Below, piece after piece: positions 556 through 47,439 of a stretch of DNA of 49,017 nucleotides (positions are counted from its first letter, which is position 1; each line of letters opens with the position of its first letter). Position numbers and translations under genes: made by a program. This DNA is from a virus: the IMG/VR virus record IMGVR_UViG_3300021197_001223, positions 1 through 49,017 of that record. One strand, written 5' to 3'. The notes under the pieces are model-generated. The model saw nothing but the letters and a program-made list of their open reading frames with translations, did not search any database and was not told where the DNA came from.

Positions 556-582
556 GGGCGGGTAGCGCCCGCCCACCTTTTT
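556..582 (+). terminator. rho-independent terminator
   Basis: A perfect 7 bp GC-only stem (GGGCGGG at 556-562 and CCCGCCC at 568-574) with a five-base loop is followed by T5 at 578-582. A weaker hairpin (GGGTT/AACCC, 512-525) lies upstream. It separates the membrane-protein unit from the prohead cluster. Confidence 0.85.
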
Positions 583-584
583 AT

Positions 585-649
585 AATATTGGAGAATATC
601 AATGAAGATTACAAATGCACAACTAAAGCAAATCATCAAAGAAGAACTT
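585..649 (+). repeat. RBS plus N-terminal tag cassette, copy 1
   Basis: This 65 bp segment contains AATATTGGAGAATA, the start codon and the first 16 codons of the following gene. It matches 1247-1311 at 58 of 65 positions by my count, without gaps. Identity covers both the ribosome binding site and the coding part and stops soon after, so the unit looks like a duplicated 5' cassette attached to two otherwise different genes. Confidence 0.8.
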
Positions 650-1246
650 CGTAGCGTTCTTGCTGAAGCAAATTTTTCGCCGGATGCTAGCGATATGAAC
701 ATCCCCGAAGAACACATTCCCAAAATATTAGACATAATATCTTCCGGAACACAAGAGGGCTATAATCAGGCTAAAATGTTTATAGATGCTCTTGGCGGAG
801 ATCTGTATTGGATTGATGACTATATTGAGTACGAAAACCAAAAGATTTTTGATGGAGACGACGGTAGCCTTAAATGGCTATCTCATGTTAAGTTGGAACT
901 CATGATAGAAAAAGATTGCGACAGTTCCTCGAAAAGTTGCTTTGTAAGTATTAAAGATTTAGACAAGATCTTGGGCAGAAGTGCTTACGTAGTGCTTGGT
1001 GATGCAGACGATGCAGGGTTCTTTGACTCAAGCGGATACGATGATGAGTATAGGAATGTAGATCTGATGAAGTTATTTTCCGGTAGATTCACCCCGGATG
1101 AACTACCTATCTTTGACACAAATGATGACGATTATTATAGTGATCAAAATATCAGAGCATTGGCTAGAAAAGGCTATACAGAGGATTGGGATATGTATCA
1201 ACTAACCCCCTTAGGTCAGAGAATTAAAAAATTATTAGGCGTTTAA
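602..1246 (+). CDS. acidic 214-residue protein with shared N-terminal tag; probable prohead core or internal head protein
   Basis: The first 16 residues (MKITNAQLKQIIKEEL) are almost the same as those of the next gene, while the rest is unrelated. The tag is a predicted amphipathic helix and is followed by VLAE-A (residues 19-23), which fits the (I/L)xE cleavage rule of the T4 gp21 prohead protease. The body is strongly acidic, with Asp-rich stretches near residues 90-150 and 175-185. The start is fixed by GGAG at 591-594. The gene lies two genes before the protease, where T4 keeps its small core proteins gp67 and gp68. No sequence similarity to those was recognised; the role as a packaged or core protein is an inference from tag and context. 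Confidence 0.6.
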   Translation: MKITNAQLKQIIKEELRSVLAEANFSPDASDMNIPEEHIPKILDIISSGTQEGYNQAKMFIDALGGDLYWIDDYIEYENQKIFDGDDGSLKWLSHVKLELMIEKDCDSSSKSCFVSIKDLDKILGRSAYVVLGDADDAGFFDSSGYDDEYRNVDLMKLFSGRFTPDELPIFDTNDDDYYSDQNIRALARKGYTEDWDMYQLTPLGQRIKKLLGV

Positions 1247-1311
1247 AATATTGGAGAATAATAATGAAGATTACAAATGAACAACTAAAACAAATTATCA
1301 AAGAAGAGCTA
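1247..1311 (+). repeat. RBS plus N-terminal tag cassette, copy 2
   Basis: This is the second copy of the 65 bp unit described at 585-649. It again runs from AATATTGGAGAATA through the first 16 codons. Most coding differences are third-position changes, so the peptide is better conserved than the DNA (15 of 16 residues identical). Confidence 0.8.
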
Positions 1312-1827
1312 CAATCAGTTATGAATGAGTCCGAAGCGCTTTTGGGATTAGCCGCTCTAGCAGCTATGAGAAAGCGACGAGCCGCAGCTGCGAAGAAAAA
1401 AGCTGCTCAAGGACCTCTACCTCGTGGTGGATATAAACGAGGCTATGGCGGACCTTCTTCTTCTAGTTCTGATTCTGGGACTGCATCGGACATTGAGAAC
1501 ATAATGCAACAAAGAGCAGCAGAAGACGCAGCTAAAGAAGAAAAGCAAAAACAATACAGAGCAAATATAAGCCCATCACTCGAAGCTCTTGGTCAAGCAA
1601 AGCTGAAAGCTTTTCAGGCATTGGGGCGCGATGAAGATGGTGACTTGCCCTACATGAATGCATGGAGTGGTGACGAAGAATGGTTGGGCACTTATTATGA
1701 TGGTCCTCTGAGTTATTTTGAAGCCCTTGCTGAGGCTAAGAGAAATGGTCATATATCATATAGTGCGATTGATGATGAATCTGGTGGATTCCATTTGGAC
1801 GAATTGTTCCCCGGTAAATATATTTAG
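1264..1827 (+). CDS. tagged basic/alanine-rich protein; probable internal head or core protein
   Basis: A 187-residue protein starting with the same tag as the previous gene (MKITNEQLKQIIKEEL) followed by VMNE-S, another possible prohead-protease site. Residues 25-50 form an Ala/Arg/Lys-rich block (KRRAAAAKKKAA) that could touch DNA, then a Gly/Ser-rich linker (about 51-72), a charged helix, and an acidic C-terminal domain. The ATG follows GGAGAATA by a few bases. It sits immediately before the prohead protease gene (9 bases). The tag plus a basic region resembles the plan of T4 internal proteins, which are targeted to the prohead by a short N-terminal sequence that gp21 removes; whether this protein does the same is inferred. 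Confidence 0.6.
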   Translation: MKITNEQLKQIIKEELQSVMNESEALLGLAALAAMRKRRAAAAKKKAAQGPLPRGGYKRGYGGPSSSSSDSGTASDIENIMQQRAAEDAAKEEKQKQYRANISPSLEALGQAKLKAFQALGRDEDGDLPYMNAWSGDEEWLGTYYDGPLSYFEALAEAKRNGHISYSAIDDESGGFHLDELFPGKYI

Positions 1828-1836
1828 GAGTGACGA

Positions 1837-2460
1837 ATGTCTAAAAAATTACTAAGAGAATATCATGCATTATGCCCAGACGGCATGTGCCAAGATTTAT
1901 TGACTGAGCGTGAAAAGCGAGAGATAAAAGAAGACGGAGCTATGTATCTCACTGGTCGTATTCAAACTGCTGATAAGAAGAACGGCAATGGTCGTAAGTA
2001 CCCAGAGAAAGTTCTCAAGCGAGAAATGGACAACTACATAAGGATCGTCAACGACAATCGCGCATGTGGTGAACTTGACCATCCAGACGATTCAGTCATC
2101 AACCTTAAGAACGTATCTCACATGGTCACTAAGTGCTGGTGGGAAGGCAAGGATGTTATGGGCAAAATTAAAGTGCTCGACACTCCTTCTGGTCGCATCC
2201 TTAAGGACTTGATCAACGCTGGTGTTAAACTTGGGATATCATCTCGAGGACTTGGCTCAGTCAAAGAGTCAATGGGCGAGACTATCGTTGAAGACGACTT
2301 CCAACTTATTTGCTTTGATATCGTATCAGAGCCATCAACTCCCGATGCCTATGTGTATCCCGGAGAAGAATCGAAGAAAGCATTTAAGTTCTCGACAAGA
2401 TTGCGAGAACAAAAAGAAAATAATATTGACAATCTATTTAAGAAGATTCTTGGAGACTAA
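1837..2460 (+). CDS. 21: prohead core maturation protease (T4 gp21-like)
   Basis: This 207-residue protein has the pattern of the gp21-type serine protease that sits in the prohead core and trims scaffold and capsid proteins during head maturation. Visible landmarks are a G-R-x-Y-P segment (residues 53-56), the GELDHPD block with the likely catalytic His at 82, GISSRG with the likely nucleophile Ser at 135 or 136, and a downstream FDIVSEPSTPDAYV block (160-173). The length matches T4 gp21 (about 212). The start is supported by TTAGGAG just upstream. It lies between tagged candidate substrates on both sides and the capsid gene is some 11 kb downstream, unlike T4 where genes 21, 22 and 23 are adjacent. 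Confidence 0.9.
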   Translation: MSKKLLREYHALCPDGMCQDLLTEREKREIKEDGAMYLTGRIQTADKKNGNGRKYPEKVLKREMDNYIRIVNDNRACGELDHPDDSVINLKNVSHMVTKCWWEGKDVMGKIKVLDTPSGRILKDLINAGVKLGISSRGLGSVKESMGETIVEDDFQLICFDIVSEPSTPDAYVYPGEESKKAFKFSTRLREQKENNIDNLFKKILGD

Positions 2461-2886
2461 ATGAACAAAGAACAATTAAAGAAAACCCTTAAGCCACTTA
2501 TCAAAGAGTGCATCAAAGAAGTTATATTCGAAGAAGGGGTTCTCTCAGGAATCATTTCCGAAGTTGTTAAAGGAACAGGCGGCCAGCGTATCGTCGAGAC
2601 CAAGCAACCTCAACAATATCAAAAACCACAAATTGATCACGAATTAGAAGAACGAAAAAGAAAACAACGTCGAAAAAAGATGCTTGACTCAATCGGTCGA
2701 GACTCATACAATGGCGTTGATTTGTTTGAAGGCACAACCCCAATGTCGAATAGAGACAGTGGACGCTCATCAGGGCCTAGTGGCTCAAAGGCTCTAGAAG
2801 GTGTATCTCCAAGCGATCCCGGAGTTGATATTTCAGCATTCGGTTCTAGTTCGGCAATTTGGTCAAAATTAGCAAAGGGAAAATAA
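2461..2886 (+). CDS. small head-cluster protein with amphipathic N-terminal helix; possible prohead core protein
   Basis: A 141-residue protein whose ATG follows the protease stop directly. Its N-terminus (MNKEQLKKTLKPLIKECIKE) resembles the tag of the two proteins before the protease in pattern but not exactly, and contains several I/L-x-E steps (LIKE, IFEE) that a gp21-type protease might cut. The middle (about 60-75) is a very basic RKRKQRRKK helix, and the rest is Gly/Ser-rich and probably disordered, ending in FGSSSAIWSKLAKGK. I believe similar proteins accompany prohead proteases in other aquatic phages, but that is memory, not a search. Its stop overlaps the S21 start as TAATG. Confidence 0.6.
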   Translation: MNKEQLKKTLKPLIKECIKEVIFEEGVLSGIISEVVKGTGGQRIVETKQPQQYQKPQIDHELEERKRKQRRKKMLDSIGRDSYNGVDLFEGTTPMSNRDSGRSSGPSGSKALEGVSPSDPGVDISAFGSSSAIWSKLAKGK

Positions 2887-3080
2887 TGGCTACCAATTAT
2901 AAGATGAAGCCTCGCAAAGGCGAGACTATGGAACGGTTTATCAAAAGATTCACCAAGAAATGTAAGAAACTTGGAATCATCCAAGAGATGAGAGACAAAC
3001 GACACTTCACTTCTGACTCAGAGAAGAAGCGCCTCGCTCGGAAAAAATGGAGAGCAAACCTCAAGAAGAAGAAGCAATAA
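2886..3080 (+). CDS. rpsU: ribosomal protein bS21-like protein
   Basis: A 64-residue basic protein that matches the bS21 plan: a GETMERFIKRFTKKCKKLGI segment like the bacterial bS21 N-terminal helix, then EMRDKRHF (the E-V/M-R-x-R-x-F/Y signature), then a K/R-rich helix (EKKRLARKKWRANLKKKKQ). The frame is open further upstream, but the ATG at 2886 overlaps the previous stop as TAATG and gives the expected bS21 N-terminus, so I chose it. bS21 binds the 30S subunit near the anti-Shine-Dalgarno region. Phage-encoded bS21 is known from other aquatic phages, where it is thought to bias host ribosomes. Its place in the head cluster suggests late expression. Confidence 0.8.
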   Translation: MATNYKMKPRKGETMERFIKRFTKKCKKLGIIQEMRDKRHFTSDSEKKRLARKKWRANLKKKKQ

Positions 3081-7106: not shown

Positions 7107-10100
7107 ATGGCTAAACATTTTAATAATGGTGTAATCGTATATGACGCTCAAGTTGAGCTTCTTGATATGGTTGCCTTGCCTGCTGAGAACATCGAGTTCC
7201 CTCAAGGCGTAATGAAAAAATTAGATTACTTTTCTGATGAAGTTGTAATGCCTCTTGGCGTTTGGACCACTCAGACTGGTCTTCTTGCTGGTGAAGAATT
7301 TAAGATGGCTCGTATGGGTCACGTTCAAGCAACAGTTGACTTTGCTACAACTGGCTTTTCTGGTGCTACTGCTGATCGCGGAGCTATCCGTTCTGAGCTT
7401 GCTGCTGATAAGTCTGAGCTTGCTGATTTAATTTCTGATGAAGAAACTCGTGCAATGGGTGTTGAAGCAGGTCTTCAATCTTCAATTGACGTAAATGCTG
7501 CTGGAATCCTTTCTGTTGAGCAAGTTCACGATACATTCGTAGCTACTGTTAACGCTAAGAATGCTCAATTGGATGCTAAAGATGCTGAACTGGTAGCGGC
7601 TGATGCTACTGAAAAAGCTCGCGCTGAATTGGCTGAAGCTGGTCTTCAATCTTCAGTTGATACTAACGCTGCTGCAATCTTGACTGAAAAAGGTCGTGCA
7701 GAAGCTGCTGAAGCTGCAAACGCTGCTGCAATTTCTTCTGAAGCTGCAACTGCACGTGCTGCAGAACAAGCAAATGCTGCTGCAATCTTGACTGAAAAAG
7801 GTCGTGCTGAAGTTGCAGAAGCTGGTCTTCAAGGTTCTATTGACGGTGTTGCTGGTGATTTAGCTGCTGAAGCTACTACTGCTCGTGCTGCTGAAGCTGC
7901 AAACGCTGCTGCAATTTCTACTGAGCAATCTCGTGCTGAAGGTCAAGAAACTTTGATTCGTGGTGAGTTCGCTGCTGAAGATGCTGCGAAGCTTCAAGAA
8001 GCAAAAGGTTATGCTGATCAAGAAGTTCTTACTGAAAAGACTCGTGCTGAAGGTGCTGAGGCTGGTCTTCAAGCTGCTATCAACTCTGAAGCAGGTACTG
8101 CTCGTGCTGCAGAACAAGCTAACGCTGCTGCAATCACTGCAGAAAACGTTCGCGCTGTAGCTGCTGAAGGTTCTTTGGCTGATGCATTGCAACTTGAAGA
8201 AGATGCTCGCGTTGCTGCTGACTCTGGTCTTTCTGGTGAGATCGCTGGTGAACGTGCTCGTATCGACGCTATCTTGAATGCTTCTACTGCTGATGCTGAC
8301 TCATTCAAAGAAATCGTTGATTTGATCAACTCTGTTGACACTGAAAACGATCAAGCTTTTGCTTCTCACGTTTTGGACTTCAACGCTGCTAAGACTGCTT
8401 TGGAACAAGCTGATTCTGATGAACAAGCTGCACGTATTGCTGCTGTTTCTGGTGTTCAGTCTTCTTTGGATGCATACGTAGCTGCTAACGATGCTGCTCT
8501 TGCTGCTGAAGAAACTCGTGCTCTTGCTGCTGAAGCAGGTCTTCAATCTGGTTTGGATGCTGAAATTGCTTCTACCAACACTCGTTTTGCTTCTGCTACT
8601 AGTGATCGTGCTGCGATCCGTTCAGAGTTTGCTGCTGCAGACCTTGCAATGGAAACTGCTATGGTTGCTGAAATCGACGCTCTTAAAGTTCAAGATGGTA
8701 CTCACACTTCTGATATCGCTGCAAACGCATCTGCAATCTCTGCAGAGGCTTCTCGTGCTTCTACTGCAGAAGCTGGTTTGTCTGCTGATATTCTTACTGA
8801 AAAGAATCGCGCATTGGGTCAAGAAGCTGCAATTCGTAGCGAATTCGCTGCTGCTGATGTAGTTCTTAAAGGTCAAATGGAAGTTTACACCGATGGTGCT
8901 GTAGATGGTGAAAAAGTTCGCGCTGAAGCTGCTGAGCTTGCATTGTCTAATGCTATCGACGCTGAAGAAGCTGGACGTATCGCTGCTGTTTCTGCTGAAG
9001 CAACTGCTCGTTCTAACGCTGACGCTGGTTTGGCTGCAGACATCTTGACTGAACAGAATCGTGCATTGGGCCAAGAAGCTGCTATCCGCAGTGAATTTGC
9101 TGCTGCTGATGCTCAAGGTTTGCTTGATGCTAAAGCTTATGCTGATGGCGAAATTTCTACTTTGGAAGCTGCTGTTGAAGCTGCTGCTAATGCTGAATCT
9201 GCTGCTCGTATTTCTGAAGAAGGTCGTATCGAAGGTAAGCATGACGCTTATGTAATTTCTAACAATGCTGCTTTGGCTTCTGAAGCTTCTACAGCTCGCG
9301 CTGCTGAACTCGTAAATGCTAATGCTATCTCTGCTGAGCAACAACGTGCTACAGCTGCTGAAGGTGTATTGGACGGTAAGATTGATCAAGAAATCGCTGA
9401 TCGTACTGCTGCTGTAGGTGCAGAGCAATCTGCTCGTATCGCTGCTGTTGCTGGTCTTCAAGCTGGTTTGGATGCAGAAATTGCTGCTACCAACGCTGAC
9501 TTCGTTTCTGCTTCTGATGCTCGTGGTGTAATCGCTGCTGGTTTGGCTCAAGAACTTCTTGACCGTGCTGCTGGTGATGTTCAAGGTTTGGCTGACGCTA
9601 AAGCTTACACTGATGCTGAGATCACTTCAATGGAAACTGCTTTCACTGCTGCTCTTGACGCAGAGATTGCTGCTACCAATGCTGATTTCATCGCTGCTGA
9701 ACAAGCTCGTATCGGTATGAACACTCAGTTGACTGCTGATATCGCTACTGCTAAAGGTGAAGCTATCGCTCACACTGACTCTGCTGTTGCTGCTCTTGTA
9801 GATTCTGCACCTGCATTGTTGGATACTTTGAACGAATTGGCTGCTGCAATTGGTGACGATGAAAACTTCGCTGCTACTGTTGCTGGTGATATCGCTACTG
9901 CTAAAGCTGGTCTTGAAGCAGAAGTTGATGCTGTTGAAGCTGCATTGGCTGCACACGAAGCTTCTAACGTTGCTTCTTTCGCTGCTGCATCTACTGATCG
10001 TGGTGCTATTCGCTCTGAGTTGGCTTCTGAGAAGTCTACACTTCAAGGCGAAATGGCTGCTGCTGACGCTGTAGTAACTGCTGCATTCGAAGCTGCTGAC

Positions 10101-10640
10101 TTGGCTATGAAGAATGATCTTGAAGCAGAAGACGCACAATTGGCTTCTGACTTGGGTGACGAAATCGCTGCTCGTGTTGCTGGTGACTTGGCTGTAACTG
10201 CTGGTTACGAAGCTGCTGATGCTGCAATTGATGCTGCATACAAAGCTGCTGATACACAGTTGACTAACGACTTGTCTTCTGAAGTTGCTCGTGCGACTGC
10301 AAAAGAGAACGATATCGAAGCTAAGCAAGACCAAATGGTTGATGGTCAAGTAAAAGTTAACTTCATTTCTAATGCTGTTGCTTCTGCTGCTATCATGATG
10401 CCTGCTGGTTTTGAATACCAAATCTGCGAGAACAACGGTGCAAGCGCTTCTGCTACACTTCCAGTTCTTCAACCAAACTACAAAGTTACTGTTTCTTTGG
10501 CTGCTGCTTCATCTGAAGCAATGAACTTCTCTGCTCCTGCAGGAATGCTCATTGATGGTGAAGTTGATGGTGTTATCACCATGTACCCAGGATCTTCTGT
10601 TACTTTCGTAGAAGCAGGTGGTAAGTACTACATGATGTAA
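7107..10640 (+). CDS. 1177-residue alanine-rich coiled-coil fibre protein
   Basis: Residues 1-95 form a non-repetitive anchor. Then about 950 residues consist of degenerate repeats of the type TARAAEAANAAAI / EKGRAEAAEAGLQ / ADRGAIRSE, giving a very long coiled coil. Two blocks, DSFKEIVDLINSVDTENDQ (about 395) and APALLDTLNELAAAIGDDENF (about 905), match a motif familiar from phage tail-fibre proteins. The last 100 residues are a globular tip (GFEYQICENNGASA to GGKYYMM). Codons are extremely uniform (GCT for Ala, CGT for Arg, GAA for Glu), as in the major capsid gene, which suggests very high expression and many copies per virion. GGAGG precedes the ATG. It may be a long tail fibre or a head fibre. 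Confidence 0.75.
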   Translation: MAKHFNNGVIVYDAQVELLDMVALPAENIEFPQGVMKKLDYFSDEVVMPLGVWTTQTGLLAGEEFKMARMGHVQATVDFATTGFSGATADRGAIRSELAADKSELADLISDEETRAMGVEAGLQSSIDVNAAGILSVEQVHDTFVATVNAKNAQLDAKDAELVAADATEKARAELAEAGLQSSVDTNAAAILTEKGRAEAAEAANAAAISSEAATARAAEQANAAAILTEKGRAEVAEAGLQGSIDGVAGDLAAEATTARAAEAANAAAISTEQSRAEGQETLIRGEFAAEDAAKLQEAKGYADQEVLTEKTRAEGAEAGLQAAINSEAGTARAAEQANAAAITAENVRAVAAEGSLADALQLEEDARVAADSGLSGEIAGERARIDAILNASTADADSFKEIVDLINSVDTENDQAFASHVLDFNAAKTALEQADSDEQAARIAAVSGVQSSLDAYVAANDAALAAEETRALAAEAGLQSGLDAEIASTNTRFASATSDRAAIRSEFAAADLAMETAMVAEIDALKVQDGTHTSDIAANASAISAEASRASTAEAGLSADILTEKNRALGQEAAIRSEFAAADVVLKGQMEVYTDGAVDGEKVRAEAAELALSNAIDAEEAGRIAAVSAEATARSNADAGLAADILTEQNRALGQEAAIRSEFAAADAQGLLDAKAYADGEISTLEAAVEAAANAESAARISEEGRIEGKHDAYVISNNAALASEASTARAAELVNANAISAEQQRATAAEGVLDGKIDQEIADRTAAVGAEQSARIAAVAGLQAGLDAEIAATNADFVSASDARGVIAAGLAQELLDRAAGDVQGLADAKAYTDAEITSMETAFTAALDAEIAATNADFIAAEQARIGMNTQLTADIATAKGEAIAHTDSAVAALVDSAPALLDTLNELAAAIGDDENFAATVAGDIATAKAGLEAEVDAVEAALAAHEASNVASFAAASTDRGAIRSELASEKSTLQGEMAAADAVVTAAFEAADLAMKNDLEAEDAQLASDLGDEIAARVAGDLAVTAGYEAADAAIDAAYKAADTQLTNDLSSEVARATAKENDIEAKQDQMVDGQVKVNFISNAVASAAIMMPAGFEYQICENNGASASATLPVLQPNYKVTVSLAAASSEAMNFSAPAGMLIDGEVDGVITMYPGSSVTFVEAGGKYYMM

Positions 10641-12483: not shown

Positions 12484-13665
12484 ATGGGAGATGATTTAAT
12501 GTCAAACATGCTAGAACAGGCAATCGCCGATGCAGCCGCACTTAGAGAGCAAGCGATCAAAAACGCAGAACAATCAGTTCTTGATCAGTATTCAAAGCAG
12601 ATCAAAGAAGCGGTTGATCAAATGCTTGAAATGGACGATGCTCCGACACGAGCAGAAGAGATGATTGCCGAAGCAGAAGATGAAATCATGCAAGAAGAGG
12701 AAACAGGAATGGCTGCTGCAGCTCCTGCAGGAGAATCTGCTACTATTGAAGCTCCTGCTGCTTATGATTCTCGACCGGGCTCTGAAGATGTTAATGTTAG
12801 AATATCTGCAATGCTTGCAAACCTTCCATTTGATGATAACGATGAAATTGAACTCGACTTCGGAGATCTTGATCCAGAACCAATCGACCTCTCACAAGGC
12901 GCAGAAGGCGCTCCAGACGCTCTTGGTAGCTTAGATATGGGCACACCCGATGATGGTGCCGGAGACGATCTCGGTGGAGATTTGGACCTCGGAGGAGATG
13001 ATTTGGGTGGAGATGATGACCTTGACCTTCAACTGCAAGAAGTCCTTAGCATGCTTAACGAAGAAGAAGACGAAGAAGTCATCGAAGAAAAAGTCCATTA
13101 TGACTATCGACCTGAAGATGATGCTCTTGGTGGAGTGTGGAGACACAACAAATCAAGAGAACAATTCAATGCAGATATGGCCGAACTACTTTACGGAGAA
13201 GAAGAATCCGAAGAAGAAGATGACGTAAACGAAGAATTAATGGGTCAAGTTAATGACCTACATGAGACAGTAGATTCTCTGACGCAACAAAACTCACAAT
13301 TAGAGCGCGTCCTTACCAAGTTGGAAGTCCACCTTGAGGAGTCTTTATTGTCAAACGCAAAACTTTTATATCAAAACCGCACACTAGCTGATGCCTCCCT
13401 GAATGAGCGACAAAAATCTAAAATTGTCGAAGCCATTGCTAATGCGGAGTCTCCGAAGGAAGCTAAAAAACTTCATGAGACACTCAAAGCTACAGTGGGA
13501 TCGACGCCTAACAGCAAAAGAGATCCACAATCACTTAGCGAGTCCGTCAATCGACGTTCGAACTTAAGTTCTATGTTGAATTCGAGACAAAACATTAACG
13601 AAAGCAAGCAAAGCTCTGACCCATTCTTGGCGAAGATGCAGAAGCTTGCAGGCATAAAAAAATAA
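12484..13665 (+). CDS. 22: prohead scaffold / capsid assembly core protein (gp22-like)
   Basis: A 393-residue, very acidic protein directly upstream of the major capsid gene. It starts with a helical segment (MLEQAIADAAALREQAIKNAE), continues with an Asp/Glu/Gly-rich low-complexity middle (LGGDLDLGGDDLGGDDDLD, about residues 165-185), and ends with a coiled coil (EELMGQVNDLHETVDSLTQQ, about 250-270; LLSNAKLLYQNRTLADASLN) and a C-terminal PFLAKMQKLAGIKK. Acidity, coiled coil and gene order are what is expected for the T4 gp22 core scaffold, which is removed by the gp21 protease. ATGs at 12484 and 12499 both have a GGAG upstream; I kept the first. Confidence 0.8.
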   Translation: MGDDLMSNMLEQAIADAAALREQAIKNAEQSVLDQYSKQIKEAVDQMLEMDDAPTRAEEMIAEAEDEIMQEEETGMAAAAPAGESATIEAPAAYDSRPGSEDVNVRISAMLANLPFDDNDEIELDFGDLDPEPIDLSQGAEGAPDALGSLDMGTPDDGAGDDLGGDLDLGGDDLGGDDDLDLQLQEVLSMLNEEEDEEVIEEKVHYDYRPEDDALGGVWRHNKSREQFNADMAELLYGEEESEEEDDVNEELMGQVNDLHETVDSLTQQNSQLERVLTKLEVHLEESLLSNAKLLYQNRTLADASLNERQKSKIVEAIANAESPKEAKKLHETLKATVGSTPNSKRDPQSLSESVNRRSNLSSMLNSRQNINESKQSSDPFLAKMQKLAGIKK

Positions 13666-13682: not shown

Positions 13683-15464
13683 ATGTCTATTATCGAAACT
13701 CTTACAGAAGGGATGGTTAACCGCAACTTGCAAAAAGAAGGTGCCGCTCTTTTGAACAAGTGGACCGCAACCGGTCTTCTTGAAGGCTTGTCTAACGACA
13801 ATGACAAGCACAACATGGCTCGCTTGCTTGAAAACCAAGCAAAAGAATTACTTCGCGAGGCTACTGCAATGGGCGGTGGAGCACCTGGATCTGTTGAAGG
13901 TTTTGCCGCTGTTGCTTTCCCAATCGTTCGTCGTGTATTCGCCGGATTGATTGCAAACGACTTGGTTTCTGTTCAACCAATGTCTCTTCCATCTGGATTG
14001 ATCTTCTTCATGGATTTCACATATTCTAATGATATCGGATCATCTGCTGGGGGTATGGAAAACCGCTTTGGTAACGCCAAAGATGCATCTATCTACGGTA
14101 CTGATGCTGTTGGTTCTCAAGTAACTGGTGGTGTTAACTTGGTTGGAACATTGGGTGAAAACCTTTCTGGTCCTCGTGAAGCTGTTGGTTATGCTTATGC
14201 TTCTCCAACTGACTCTATTACTGCTGTAAATGGTTCTGGTGCCGCTCATCGCGATGTTGCTGATTCATTTACAATCTCAGCCGCTACAGAAGCTCAAAAG
14301 AAACTTTTGCAATACGACCCAGATCTTTTGGACCTCGCTGCTACAGATGCTTTTATCGTTGATATCGCTAAGAGTCTTTTTGATACTGGAAATGCTGACT
14401 TTAACAACTTGGCTGCTTTCAATATTTTGCCGGCTACATTAGGTGCTTTAACTGGTCTTACTACCGCCAGTACAATCGTACGTCGATTGACTTCAGTAGT
14501 TGAGTCAAGTTCATTGACTAGTAATGTTCCCGCAGTTCGCTTTGTAATTGTTGAAGCTAGCGCTACATCTGCTACTCTTAGTTTCGGCGCAGACATTGCA
14601 GTCGAGATTCCTGTTGCAGATACTGCTACTGCTGGTACTGCTGCGGCTGGTGCACTCAATGCATACACAATGTTGCTTGAGAATTCTGAAAATATCCCAG
14701 AGATCGACATCAAGGTTGACTCAATCGCTATCACAGCACAAACCAAGAAGTTGAAAGCAAAGTGGACTCCAGAATTGGGCCAAGACTTGAACGCTTACCA
14801 CAACTTGGACGCTGAGGTTGAATTGACTTCTATCCTTTCTGAGCAAATCGCTCTTGAATTGGATCGTGAAATCTTGGCTGACCTTGTAAACGGCGCAACT
14901 GCTGCGACTTTCTACTGGTCTCGTTCACCTGGTTTGTTTGTAAACCGTTCAACTGGTGCTGAGCTTGGTGCTACTTCTGCTGCTCCTGACTTCACTGGTA
15001 CTGTATCTGAATGGTACGAAACTTTGATCGAAACTATCAACGACGTTTCTGCACAAATCCACCGTAAGACTTTGCGTGGTGGTGCTAACTTCGTAGTTGT
15101 TTCTCCTGAAGTTGCAAACATCTTAGAATTCACTGCTGGTTTCCGTGCGAACGTAACTGCTGACGCTGATAAAGGCGACATCGGTGCAGTTAAGGTTGGT
15201 TCTTTGAACCGTAAGTTCGACATCATTGTTGATCCTTACTTCCCACGTAACGCTATCTTGGTTGGACGTAAAGGTTCTTCTTTCCTTGAGTCTGGTTATG
15301 TATATGCACCATACGTGCCTCTGCAAACAACTCCTACCATCTTTGGACCAGAAGACTTCGTTCCTCGCAAAGGTGTTATGACTCGTTACGCTAAGAAAAT
15401 GGTTCGTCCTGATATGTACGGTCTTGTTATCGTTCGTGGATTGTTGGGTGAATCTGGTTCCTAA
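13683..15464 (+). CDS. 23: major capsid protein (T4 gp23-like)
   Basis: A 593-residue protein with clear gp23 landmarks: KWTATGLLEGL (27-36), MARLLENQAKELLREA (45-60), FPIVRRVFAGLIANDLVSVQPM, SGLIFFMDFTY, TPELGQDLNAYHNLDAEVELTSILSEQIALELDREI, and the C-terminal GVMTRYAKK. LLRE-A at 56-60 fits the gp21 cleavage rule and sits close to where T4 gp23 is cut (after residue 65). It forms the capsid hexamers. AAGGAG lies well before the ATG, 17 bases after the scaffold stop. Codon choice is strongly biased (GCT, CGT, TTG, AAC), as expected for the most abundant virion protein. No separate vertex protein (gp24) is in the window. Confidence 0.95.
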   Translation: MSIIETLTEGMVNRNLQKEGAALLNKWTATGLLEGLSNDNDKHNMARLLENQAKELLREATAMGGGAPGSVEGFAAVAFPIVRRVFAGLIANDLVSVQPMSLPSGLIFFMDFTYSNDIGSSAGGMENRFGNAKDASIYGTDAVGSQVTGGVNLVGTLGENLSGPREAVGYAYASPTDSITAVNGSGAAHRDVADSFTISAATEAQKKLLQYDPDLLDLAATDAFIVDIAKSLFDTGNADFNNLAAFNILPATLGALTGLTTASTIVRRLTSVVESSSLTSNVPAVRFVIVEASATSATLSFGADIAVEIPVADTATAGTAAAGALNAYTMLLENSENIPEIDIKVDSIAITAQTKKLKAKWTPELGQDLNAYHNLDAEVELTSILSEQIALELDREILADLVNGATAATFYWSRSPGLFVNRSTGAELGATSAAPDFTGTVSEWYETLIETINDVSAQIHRKTLRGGANFVVVSPEVANILEFTAGFRANVTADADKGDIGAVKVGSLNRKFDIIVDPYFPRNAILVGRKGSSFLESGYVYAPYVPLQTTPTIFGPEDFVPRKGVMTRYAKKMVRPDMYGLVIVRGLLGESGS

Positions 15465-45023: not shown

Positions 45024-45323
45024 ATGCAATTCAAACCATTTAACAAACATTTATTAATCAAGCCAAGAGAGCAAGAGCAAACCAAAGAAGACTCCCTGTT
45101 GGTAATGCCTGACGAGTATCGTCCGCCCAAATCCCCATATGTAATCGCTGACGTCATTGGAATGTCCGAAGACTGCACGATTGCATTAGACCTTGGAGAC
45201 ACCATCGTAGTGGAAAGAACCACAGTTCAGGAGATAAAAGCCGATTCTCAAACTATTTATGTGGTCAAAGAGAACTACGTCTATGGGAGAACTGGTAATG
45301 AAATTAAAGATCAAACTGACTGA
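45024..45323 (+). CDS. GroES/gp31-like co-chaperonin
   Basis: A 99-residue protein: FKPFNKHLLIKPREQEQ (like 'irPL-x-DRVlVKr'), a mobile-loop region EDSLLVMPDEYRPPKSPYVIADVIG, then LDLGDTIVVERTTVQEI and YVVKENYVYGRTG, in the order of Cpn10 proteins. T4 gp31 is the co-chaperonin that lets host GroEL fold the capsid protein, and a similar role is expected here. The hydrophobic GroEL-binding tripeptide would be LLV (residues 25-27). GGAGG precedes the ATG; the next gene overlaps the end. Confidence 0.65.
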   Translation: MQFKPFNKHLLIKPREQEQTKEDSLLVMPDEYRPPKSPYVIADVIGMSEDCTIALDLGDTIVVERTTVQEIKADSQTIYVVKENYVYGRTGNEIKDQTD

Positions 45324-45891
45324 GGCAAAACAGTCAAAGTACATGAAAGTGCTCGAGATGCTAAGAGGTAAGGACCCAAGTGTTAAGTCGATAACCATCA
45401 TGTCCGGACAAAATCCGAATGCACAACAAATGATTGAACCAATCAATACACAATTGAAAGGCGATCTAGAAAGTAGACTCAAAGAAATGGGCCTTAAATA
45501 TGTTAGGGTTGGCGGAAAGTTCTTCGGTGTATTTGAGCAATCAGTGATTGTTATTAATCCAGAGATCAAGCAGATAGCCAAACTCAATAAAGAGTTTGGA
45601 CAATGGGGCTTCTTGTATGGAGAGAAATTCACCATCGAAGCAGGCAACGACACGATGCTCTTTACCATGTATCAGATTGACTATGAGGGAGATTCCCTGT
45701 TCTTTAGAGCAAGTGGATCACACAAGGTTTCTGATGTATATGACCACTCTCAATTAGCACAACAAGGTGACGACTTCACATTTATTCCGAAGTCTCAACA
45801 GGGCGATGATCCAGAGACAAGAGTAGGAAAGAAATTTAATATCCCAGTATACGAAGGATATAAGCGCAGAGGTATTGATGAAAGAGATTGA
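45298..45891 (+). CDS. DUF3293-like protein of unknown function
   Basis: A 197-residue protein from ATG 45298, which overlaps the previous gene by 26 bases and has GGGAG upstream. SITIMSGQNPNAQQM, INTQLKGDLESRLKEMG, VGGKFFGVFEQSVIVINP and LNKEFGQWGFLYGE follow the DUF3293 pattern ('isA-x-NP-x-x', N-x-x-L-x-x-x-L, 'E-x-S-x-l-v', 'LA-x-x-fgQ-x-a'). The C-terminal half ends FNIPVYEGYKRRGID. Its function is not known to me. The end overlaps the ThyX gene by 14 bases. Confidence 0.55.
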   Translation: MKLKIKLTEAKQSKYMKVLEMLRGKDPSVKSITIMSGQNPNAQQMIEPINTQLKGDLESRLKEMGLKYVRVGGKFFGVFEQSVIVINPEIKQIAKLNKEFGQWGFLYGEKFTIEAGNDTMLFTMYQIDYEGDSLFFRASGSHKVSDVYDHSQLAQQGDDFTFIPKSQQGDDPETRVGKKFNIPVYEGYKRRGIDERD

Positions 45892-46582: not shown

Positions 46583-46817
46583 GTTCGAGAGAGGAGATCT
46601 CGTTATGTTTTGTCAAGAAACAGTTGGTGAGATGGTTTCTAGCCTAGGTATCGTAGTGTCTGAGCCGGTGCTGATGTTCAGCCATAAATGGCCAAACGAA
46701 GAACACGATGAGAACTATTGGTGTTATGAGGTCAAAGTGGACAACGCCCTATTTAAAATGATACCAGAGTCATTCCTAAGGAGATTGAAAGATGAAGATG
46801 AAACTGAAAATACTTAA
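46563..46817 (+). CDS. small GDL-type protein, distant fourth member
   Basis: An 84-residue protein from GTG 46563: DPKFERGDLVMFCQE, SSLGIVVSEPVLMF, CYEVKVDNALFKMIPESFLRRL. The GDLV start, central LGIVV turn and final PESFLRRL match the tandem GDL proteins at 33784-34367, especially the PSSFIRTL end of the second. The GTG has a weak AGTAGG upstream and keeps the segment before GDLV; an ATG at 46605 has a better GAGGAG but would cut off GDLV. It overlaps thyX by 20 bases. Confidence 0.6.
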   Translation: MNCGDPKFERGDLVMFCQETVGEMVSSLGIVVSEPVLMFSHKWPNEEHDENYWCYEVKVDNALFKMIPESFLRRLKDEDETENT

Positions 46818-47439
46818 AGAAAGCAGGTACCAAGGCTTATATGATATGGTTGACGTACACCCCGGCTCTATCGACTTGTTTATCAAGCATTTCGTAGACA
46901 TAAGTATGGACGTTCAAACCGCAAGGCGAGACTTCTTTACTAGTACATTCGGAAGCCAAATTGATGCTTTGACTGATGCAGATATCCCGAGAACATCATC
47001 AAGAGGATATCCCGATGCTCTAACAAAAGTACAAGTCCAACTCCGAGTAGGAATTTCCCATTGGTACAACCAAGTTTTTGGATCGGACATGGCTGACTTT
47101 GTTATCGAAGCAAAGGCTCTCATGTACCTAACTGAACTCGCAGAAGGGCTGGAGAGAATTGGATACGAAACCATAACAGGTGATGAGTTTAATTCCCTTT
47201 CTACAGCAGACAAAAGTCTGGTATTCGAGAAGCATTTCCTCGAGGACTATCTAGATAGCTTCATCAAAGACCACGTAAAGATGAGTTCAATGAACACCAC
47301 TGGATTCTTAGATAATCCGGGTGTTGGTGCTGGACTATACGGTCAAATGAAAGACTGGTATATGTCGACAGCCGGTGCTGATGTATTGGGTCAAAAAATC
47401 AAAGAGTTGCTTCCAATGTTACCACAGAGGGCAGCTTGA
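46792..47439 (+). CDS. unrecognised 215-residue protein
   Basis: A mostly helical protein starting at ATG 46792 with AAGGAG upstream. Visible features are an N-terminal basic segment (MKMKLKILKESRYQG), RGYPDALTKVQVQLRVGISHWY (about 77-98), an acidic helical middle and a Pro-containing C-terminus (ELLPMLPQRAA). No catalytic motif or membrane span is visible. It overlaps the gene before by 26 bases and the one after as TTGA, so it belongs to the same translationally coupled run as thyX. Confidence 0.6.
   Translation: MKMKLKILKESRYQGLYDMVDVHPGSIDLFIKHFVDISMDVQTARRDFFTSTFGSQIDALTDADIPRTSSRGYPDALTKVQVQLRVGISHWYNQVFGSDMADFVIEAKALMYLTELAEGLERIGYETITGDEFNSLSTADKSLVFEKHFLEDYLDSFIKDHVKMSSMNTTGFLDNPGVGAGLYGQMKDWYMSTAGADVLGQKIKELLPMLPQRAA

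Follow-up and report, generated by a model that had tools for sequence, protein, structure and literature searches.

The 22-residue front shared by two neighbouring proteins of an uncultured phage is probably a cleavable capsid-targeting propeptide, which would function like the CTS of bacteriophage T4 and is unrelated to it in sequence. This front, here called the class 1 tag, is attached to many unrelated proteins (cargos), is encoded in the proximity of a prohead protease gene and often ends as expected for cleavage, and for these reasons it probably acts as a swappable head-loading signal. It also appears rather likely that at least three unrelated and interchangeable N-terminal signals, each removed by the protease, load dozens of accessory proteins into the heads of a large group of uncultured phages related to T4. 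The window, i.e. the whole stretch of DNA analysed, comprises 49,017 nucleotides; this 49-kb virus record is probably a fragment.

The two tagged genes, ORFs 602-1246 and 1264-1827 (both on the + strand), encode proteins of 214 and 187 amino acids with the N-termini MKITNAQLKQIIKEEL and MKITNEQLKQIIKEEL, respectively. Fifteen of these 16 residues are the same and one differs, the common start being MKITN[A/E]QLKQIIKEEL; otherwise the proteins are unrelated. The DNA at 585-649 is identical to that at 1247-1311 in 58 of 65 positions, including the leaders with their GGAG ribosome-binding site (585..601 and 1247..1263), and the similarity drops beyond the tag. Direct reading of the first 16 codons reveals five codon differences, four of which are synonymous. 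The near-identical starts and the DNA identity that extends over the ribosome-binding site had both been claimed in the original prediction and were reproduced. With a 22-column tag profile, built from 149 relatives that had been collected by a degenerate codon pattern, copy 1 (MKITNAQLKQIIKEELRSVLAE, 602..667) scored 48.7 bits and copy 2 (MKITNEQLKQIIKEELQSVMNE, 1264..1329) 45.1 bits; the next-highest start peptide of the window reached 6.9 bits. An (I/L/M)xE step after the shared start, as originally noted, is present in both tags in the form of VLAE↓A (copy 1) and VMNE↓S (copy 2), in which the arrow marks the predicted cleavage after Glu22. The T4 CTS pattern of [LI]xE and a small residue is found as LAE↓A in copy 1; copy 2 has M at the first position (MNE↓S). 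Beyond the predicted cleavage point the product of ORF 602 begins with ANFSPDASDMNIPEEHIPK. Cargos similar to this cargo 1 (668..1246) carry class 1 tags in three other loci (L128, L139 and L140), and cargo 2 (1330..1827) has a basic, low-complexity front. A hairpin resembling an intrinsic terminator (556..574, + strand; 8-bp stem with seven GC pairs, T-run) precedes the tagged genes; its fold z is only -1.56, and it is kept in the related loci L122 and L031. Structure modelling predicted tag copy 1 as one helix (residues 5-23) at low confidence, and the mean pLDDT of the models was 48.5 for cargo 1 and 57 for the L122 cargo.

The tagged genes are followed by the gene of a prohead core protease of the T4 gp21 type (1837..2460, + strand; Peptidase_S77, Pfam 5.5e-33, PHROG 6e-61). 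It passes the curated cut-off of 27 bits for Peptidase_S77 with 114.5 bits, and a similarity search with this protease returned 2562 phage records. An arrangement of two tags, protease and a third, looser tag had been proposed for this region, of which the two tags and the S77 protease stand and the third tag falls. The gene that adjoins the protease on its 3' side (2461..2886, + strand) scored 2.5 bits with the tag profile, below the shuffled background of 12 bits, and given the scores of the two true copies the third one is not confirmed. Its N-terminus is the conserved front (MNKxELKKxLKPLIKECIKEVIFEEGxLS...) of an orthologue that immediately follows the protease gene in 56 of the 72 loci scored; by this conservation, 2461 is a fixed core gene and its front is not a transferable tag. 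In loci that have another gene at this position, that gene often has a class 1 start or the start of a second tag type (class 2, see below).

Two genes past the protease, ribosomal protein S21 is encoded (2886-3080, + strand; Pfam 1.7e-10), and the gene order of the related isolate Microcystis phage Mel-JY01 is terminase, a gene at the portal position, protease, S21 (RpsU) and capsid. The major capsid protein gp23 is encoded at 13683..15464 (+ strand; PF07068, 4.1e-76), and its propeptide is predicted to be cleaved at 13859/13860 (ELLRE↓A). The gene in front of it (12484..13665, + strand) had no useful match in Pfam and PHROG searches and, by its position corresponding to T4 gp22, probably encodes the scaffold or core protein; its relatives show an LKE↓A or LRE↓A step at residue 17. 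A 1177-residue protein (7107-10640, + strand) without a Pfam match contains degenerate coiled-coil repeats of the type AEQANAAAIxxEKxRAE and is perhaps a fibre or whisker protein. Two further proteins of the window (45298-45891 and 46792-47439, + strand), the former a DUF3293 protein (3e-5), start with MKLKIKLTE↓AKQ and MKMKLKILKE↓SRY and thus have an LxE step after 9-10 residues, as in the CTS of T4. Both were rejected as tagged proteins, as they gave background scores with the models of all three tag types.

The association of the tag with the prohead protease was followed in 45 long contigs, 27 of which had been picked by tag and 18 by protease. S77 is present in 38 of them, and in six of the seven contigs lacking it the sequence ends close to the tag cluster, in the direction in which the protease gene would be expected. 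The true exception is a contig of 76 kb (G017) that has six tags and no match to S77, portal or gp23. In the contigs with S77 all 125 strong tags lie on the strand of the protease, 103 of them up to 30 kb upstream of it, where a uniform distribution would give 46, and only one at +2.5 to +30 kb, where it would give 27. Tagged genes of relatives are mostly located upstream of the portal gene, others between portal and protease. In one contig (G006), with no end repeats in 400 bases, the majority of the tags are ≈80 kb away from the protease. Among 80 loci picked only by similarity to the protease, class 1 tags were found in 41 and class 2 tags in 33, within the DNA available for these loci. The clustering of tagged starts near prohead proteases, the check suggested with the original prediction, is thus well borne out. 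In a 245-kb phage contig (G020, locus L475), the S77 and portal domains are embedded in very long ORFs with intein-like insertions.

A [LIM]xE motif starting at residues 19-25 was detected in 187 of 352 family representatives, compared with 23-33 in equal control windows (p=2e-38). [LIM]xE ends are about six-fold enriched over chance among class 1 tags, ≈47% of which are without the motif at residues 19-25. Conceivably, the tag could be an assembly or localisation helix that is not cleaved and docks to the core, the portal, the membrane or a phage compartment, with [LIM]xE representing the last turn of a glutamate-rich amphipathic helix. The single predicted helix (residues 5-23, low confidence) and the half of the tags that lack an exact [LIM]xE are in agreement with such a function, and the clustering with head genes would suit any head-docking role. 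However, L, I or M at position 20 is coupled to Glu at position 22 (49/73 versus 10/76, p=7e-12), the L/I/M-x-E unit can move by one residue, and the residue following Glu is preferentially G, then A, E, Q or S, the preference for the small residues G, A and S being a further point that speaks against a mere helix end. Moreover, an [LIM]xE end is likewise seen in 57 of 79 families (4-9 in controls) of class 3, an unrelated tag type whose model took no account of this motif, and in one pair of swapped tags the homology of the cargos begins directly past Glu. An uncleaved helix is therefore unlikely in our view, and we favour the cleavable propeptide. The corresponding statistic for class 2 is biased, since the class 2 seeds required the final Glu. 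T4 gp23 is cut at the place that corresponds to an LL[RK]E step. This step precedes the shell domain in the major capsid proteins of 24 of 24 relatives aligned, mostly followed by A, S or N, and the same motif hence stands where T4 gp23 is cut. The T4 protease gp21 cleaves after L/I-x-E (PMC9026906). When gene starts were scanned for [LIM]xE[ASG], peaks were obtained for protease, capsid and scaffold proteins and for two further shared N-termini.

In IMG/VR, a search for the first 15 tag residues that allowed for codon degeneracy identified at least 119 stretches, of which many contain two to five copies; the same pattern had zero matches in the genomes of 84,980 bacterial and archaeal species (one genome per species). 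No N-terminal match of the tag was present in phage isolates, and full-length searches with the two tagged proteins of the window found no relative there. With the short tag as query, isolates yielded nothing but the C-terminal part of a protein from a Microcystis phage and a jumbo phage without annotation (E=2). Sequence searches of the PDB gave nothing usable, PADLOC gave two weak matches, and IIKEEL had no relevant mention in phage papers of open-access PubMed Central, an earlier description elsewhere being possible. The hypothetical Mel-JY01 protein WWT39336 (L203:10792-12078) starts with MQFKQYILGE↓S and has a tag-like C-terminus, GMKITREQLKEKIRIIVKRVLNEAMK, which is possibly a targeting propeptide by analogy to the C-terminal processing of T4 Alt.

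In the loci fetched, 697 start peptides scored above 12 bits as opposed to none after shuffling, and the shared start is therefore not due to chance. An enlarged set of 424 loci (4.07 Mb) contained 978 start peptides at ≥12 bits (three after shuffling). In a separate search for internal and C-terminal tags, 438 matches were located at start codons and 20 elsewhere, many of the latter being short or open ORFs. The 424 loci encode 583 non-identical proteins with a class 1 tag, which fall into 375 cargo families by BLASTP at 1e-4, a threshold at which distantly related cargos may be split. None of the tagged phages has been cultured, and the majority of the contigs are incomplete. Tandem tagged genes, as in the window, and the many members of some cargo families would be expected if all tagged proteins formed a single, fast-diverging paralogous family. 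This is the least probable of the explanations considered, given 375 families with unrelated Pfam folds such as L,D-transpeptidase, AAA_33 kinase-like protein and DEDD exonuclease. In the first survey most class 1 cargo families were singletons and a few had many members; the majority of class 1 cargos had no Pfam assignment. Cargo domains overall include kinase-like, exonuclease, L,D-transpeptidase, protein-kinase and zeta-toxin-like domains. A jumbo phage contig of 242 kb (G002, loci L472 and L473) has 22 tag matches in two dense arrays and includes K/R-rich tag variants such as MKITKRQLRRIIKEE.

Two other tag types, class 2 (MKLLLENWRKFLNE↓S) and class 3 (MARRKNTKRFDPRYFMDEKTDxINE↓S), occur in the same neighbourhoods and are, by sequence, unrelated to class 1. 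The enlarged set contains 448 non-identical class 2 proteins in 177 families and 147 non-identical class 3 proteins in 80 families, and 168 loci have two or more tag classes. The class 2 codon pattern was absent from the bacterial and archaeal species genomes, and neither class 2 nor class 3 tags had a meaningful match among phage isolates. The tag types can replace each other on the same cargo. Two AAA_33 kinase-like proteins that are 66% identical carry a class 1 and a class 2 tag, respectively, and in a second pair a class 3 protein (...EALSE↓ATDPHDQPAGG) and a class 1 protein (...AAVLE↓ATDPHDQPAGG) become identical right after Glu. Conversely, cargo is exchanged behind the tag. The loci L122 and L031 are ≈86-88% identical to the window at the DNA level through the end of the tag and again from the start codon of the protease (leader and tag of the second tagged gene are 95.7% identical to L031). 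Between these points one protein of 165 amino acids replaces both window cargos, with identity lost just past the tag. Tagged cargos at L122:9504-9998, L031:2115-2609 and L112:8663-9235 carry a pair of H-x-[TS] motifs and in this resemble 2H phosphoesterases, a reading with weak Pfam support (E=0.005 for the H-x-T cargo); they are candidates for counter-defence against cyclic-nucleotide signalling. For 322 of 387 pairs of tagged genes with homologous upstream DNA, no nucleotide similarity was detectable in the cargo.

The shared front could also be a by-product of DNA duplication and recombination, or an element of translation initiation, without any function of the peptide. In the window, leader and ribosome-binding site have indeed been copied along with the tag, and third codon positions of tags are more alike within a locus (0.73 identical) than between loci (0.61), as determined for tags found with the degenerate codon pattern. 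Between loci, however, the protein is conserved at only 61% identity of third positions, and three unrelated tags on overlapping cargo all have a [LIM]xE end. This explanation is thus very improbable, and we maintain that the tag is conserved at the protein level, with some local copying, as the codon comparison indicates.

Encapsulin cargo-loading peptides are a known case of a short terminal peptide that brings varied cargo into a shell of the HK97 fold. To our knowledge they are not removed by a prohead protease, and of encapsulins none was seen in the 49-kb window. The closer parallel is the T4 CTS, the propeptide of IPI, IPII, IPIII and Alt. Common features are a short N-terminal sequence on otherwise unrelated proteins, a gp21-type S77 protease in the same genome (the window and the 38 long contigs mentioned above), an [LI]xE↓ end (MKTYQEFIAE↓A in T4 IPIII) and cargo that varies at hot spots (PMC9026906, PMC12373910). 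The window-type tag has ≈22 residues, compared with 10-19 in T4; the tagged genes cluster with the portal-protease block, whereas the ip genes of T4 lie elsewhere; and at least three tag types, with 22 tag matches in the 242-kb contig, distinguish these phages from T4. The T4 CTS (MKTYQEFIAE) was rejected as a homologue of the tag, ipI, ipII, ipIII and alt being at background with all three tag profiles; the tag accordingly may be said to work like a CTS, not to be the T4 CTS. Phages phiKZ and SPN3US likewise have a gp21-related protease (gp175/gp245) and many internal head proteins with cleaved propeptides, and the available portions of PMC9026906 and PMC10052503 describe no shared N-terminal tag of this kind there. 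The cleavage motif of phiKZ differs, being S/A-x-E.

We assume that the tag forms an amphipathic helix that would bind to the prohead core and thereby draw the protein linked to it into the head during assembly. The S77 protease would then cut after [L/I/M]-x-E at residue 22, and the cargo would stay inside the head and be delivered together with the DNA. Core binding, cleavage, presence in the virion and injection are proposed here by analogy to T4 (PMC9026906, PMC3012670, PMC12373910). Leader, ribosome-binding site and tag would constitute a portable 5' module, and recombination in or beside the tag would swap the cargo while the tag remains. The original prediction of a modular, T4 CTS-like entry signal that is copied onto cargo holds insofar as sequence comparison points to reuse on unrelated cargos, clustering with S77 and other head genes, a [LIM]xE junction, cargo swaps and the exchange of tag types; it had to be corrected for 2461, which is not a member, and for the T4 CTS, to which no sequence relation was found. 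Counted against the propeptide are the tags without [LIM]xE, the M of copy 2, contigs G017 and G006, the background scores of the T4 CTS and the low confidence of the helix.

T4 internal proteins act as soon as infection starts, with IPI, IPII and IPIII each blocking different type IV restriction enzymes (PMC12373910). Proteins of this type are difficult to detect, as they have nothing in common but the short targeting sequence. Should the tag have this role, hundreds of proteins of uncultured phages become candidates for injection, and a single jumbo phage would load about 20 accessory proteins. The tags would furthermore be of use as short, portable signals by which proteins can be brought into phage heads. 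Tagged phages would then possess a large and as yet unexplored set of proteins that are injected for takeover and counter-defence, and sequence alone would suffice to recognise them.
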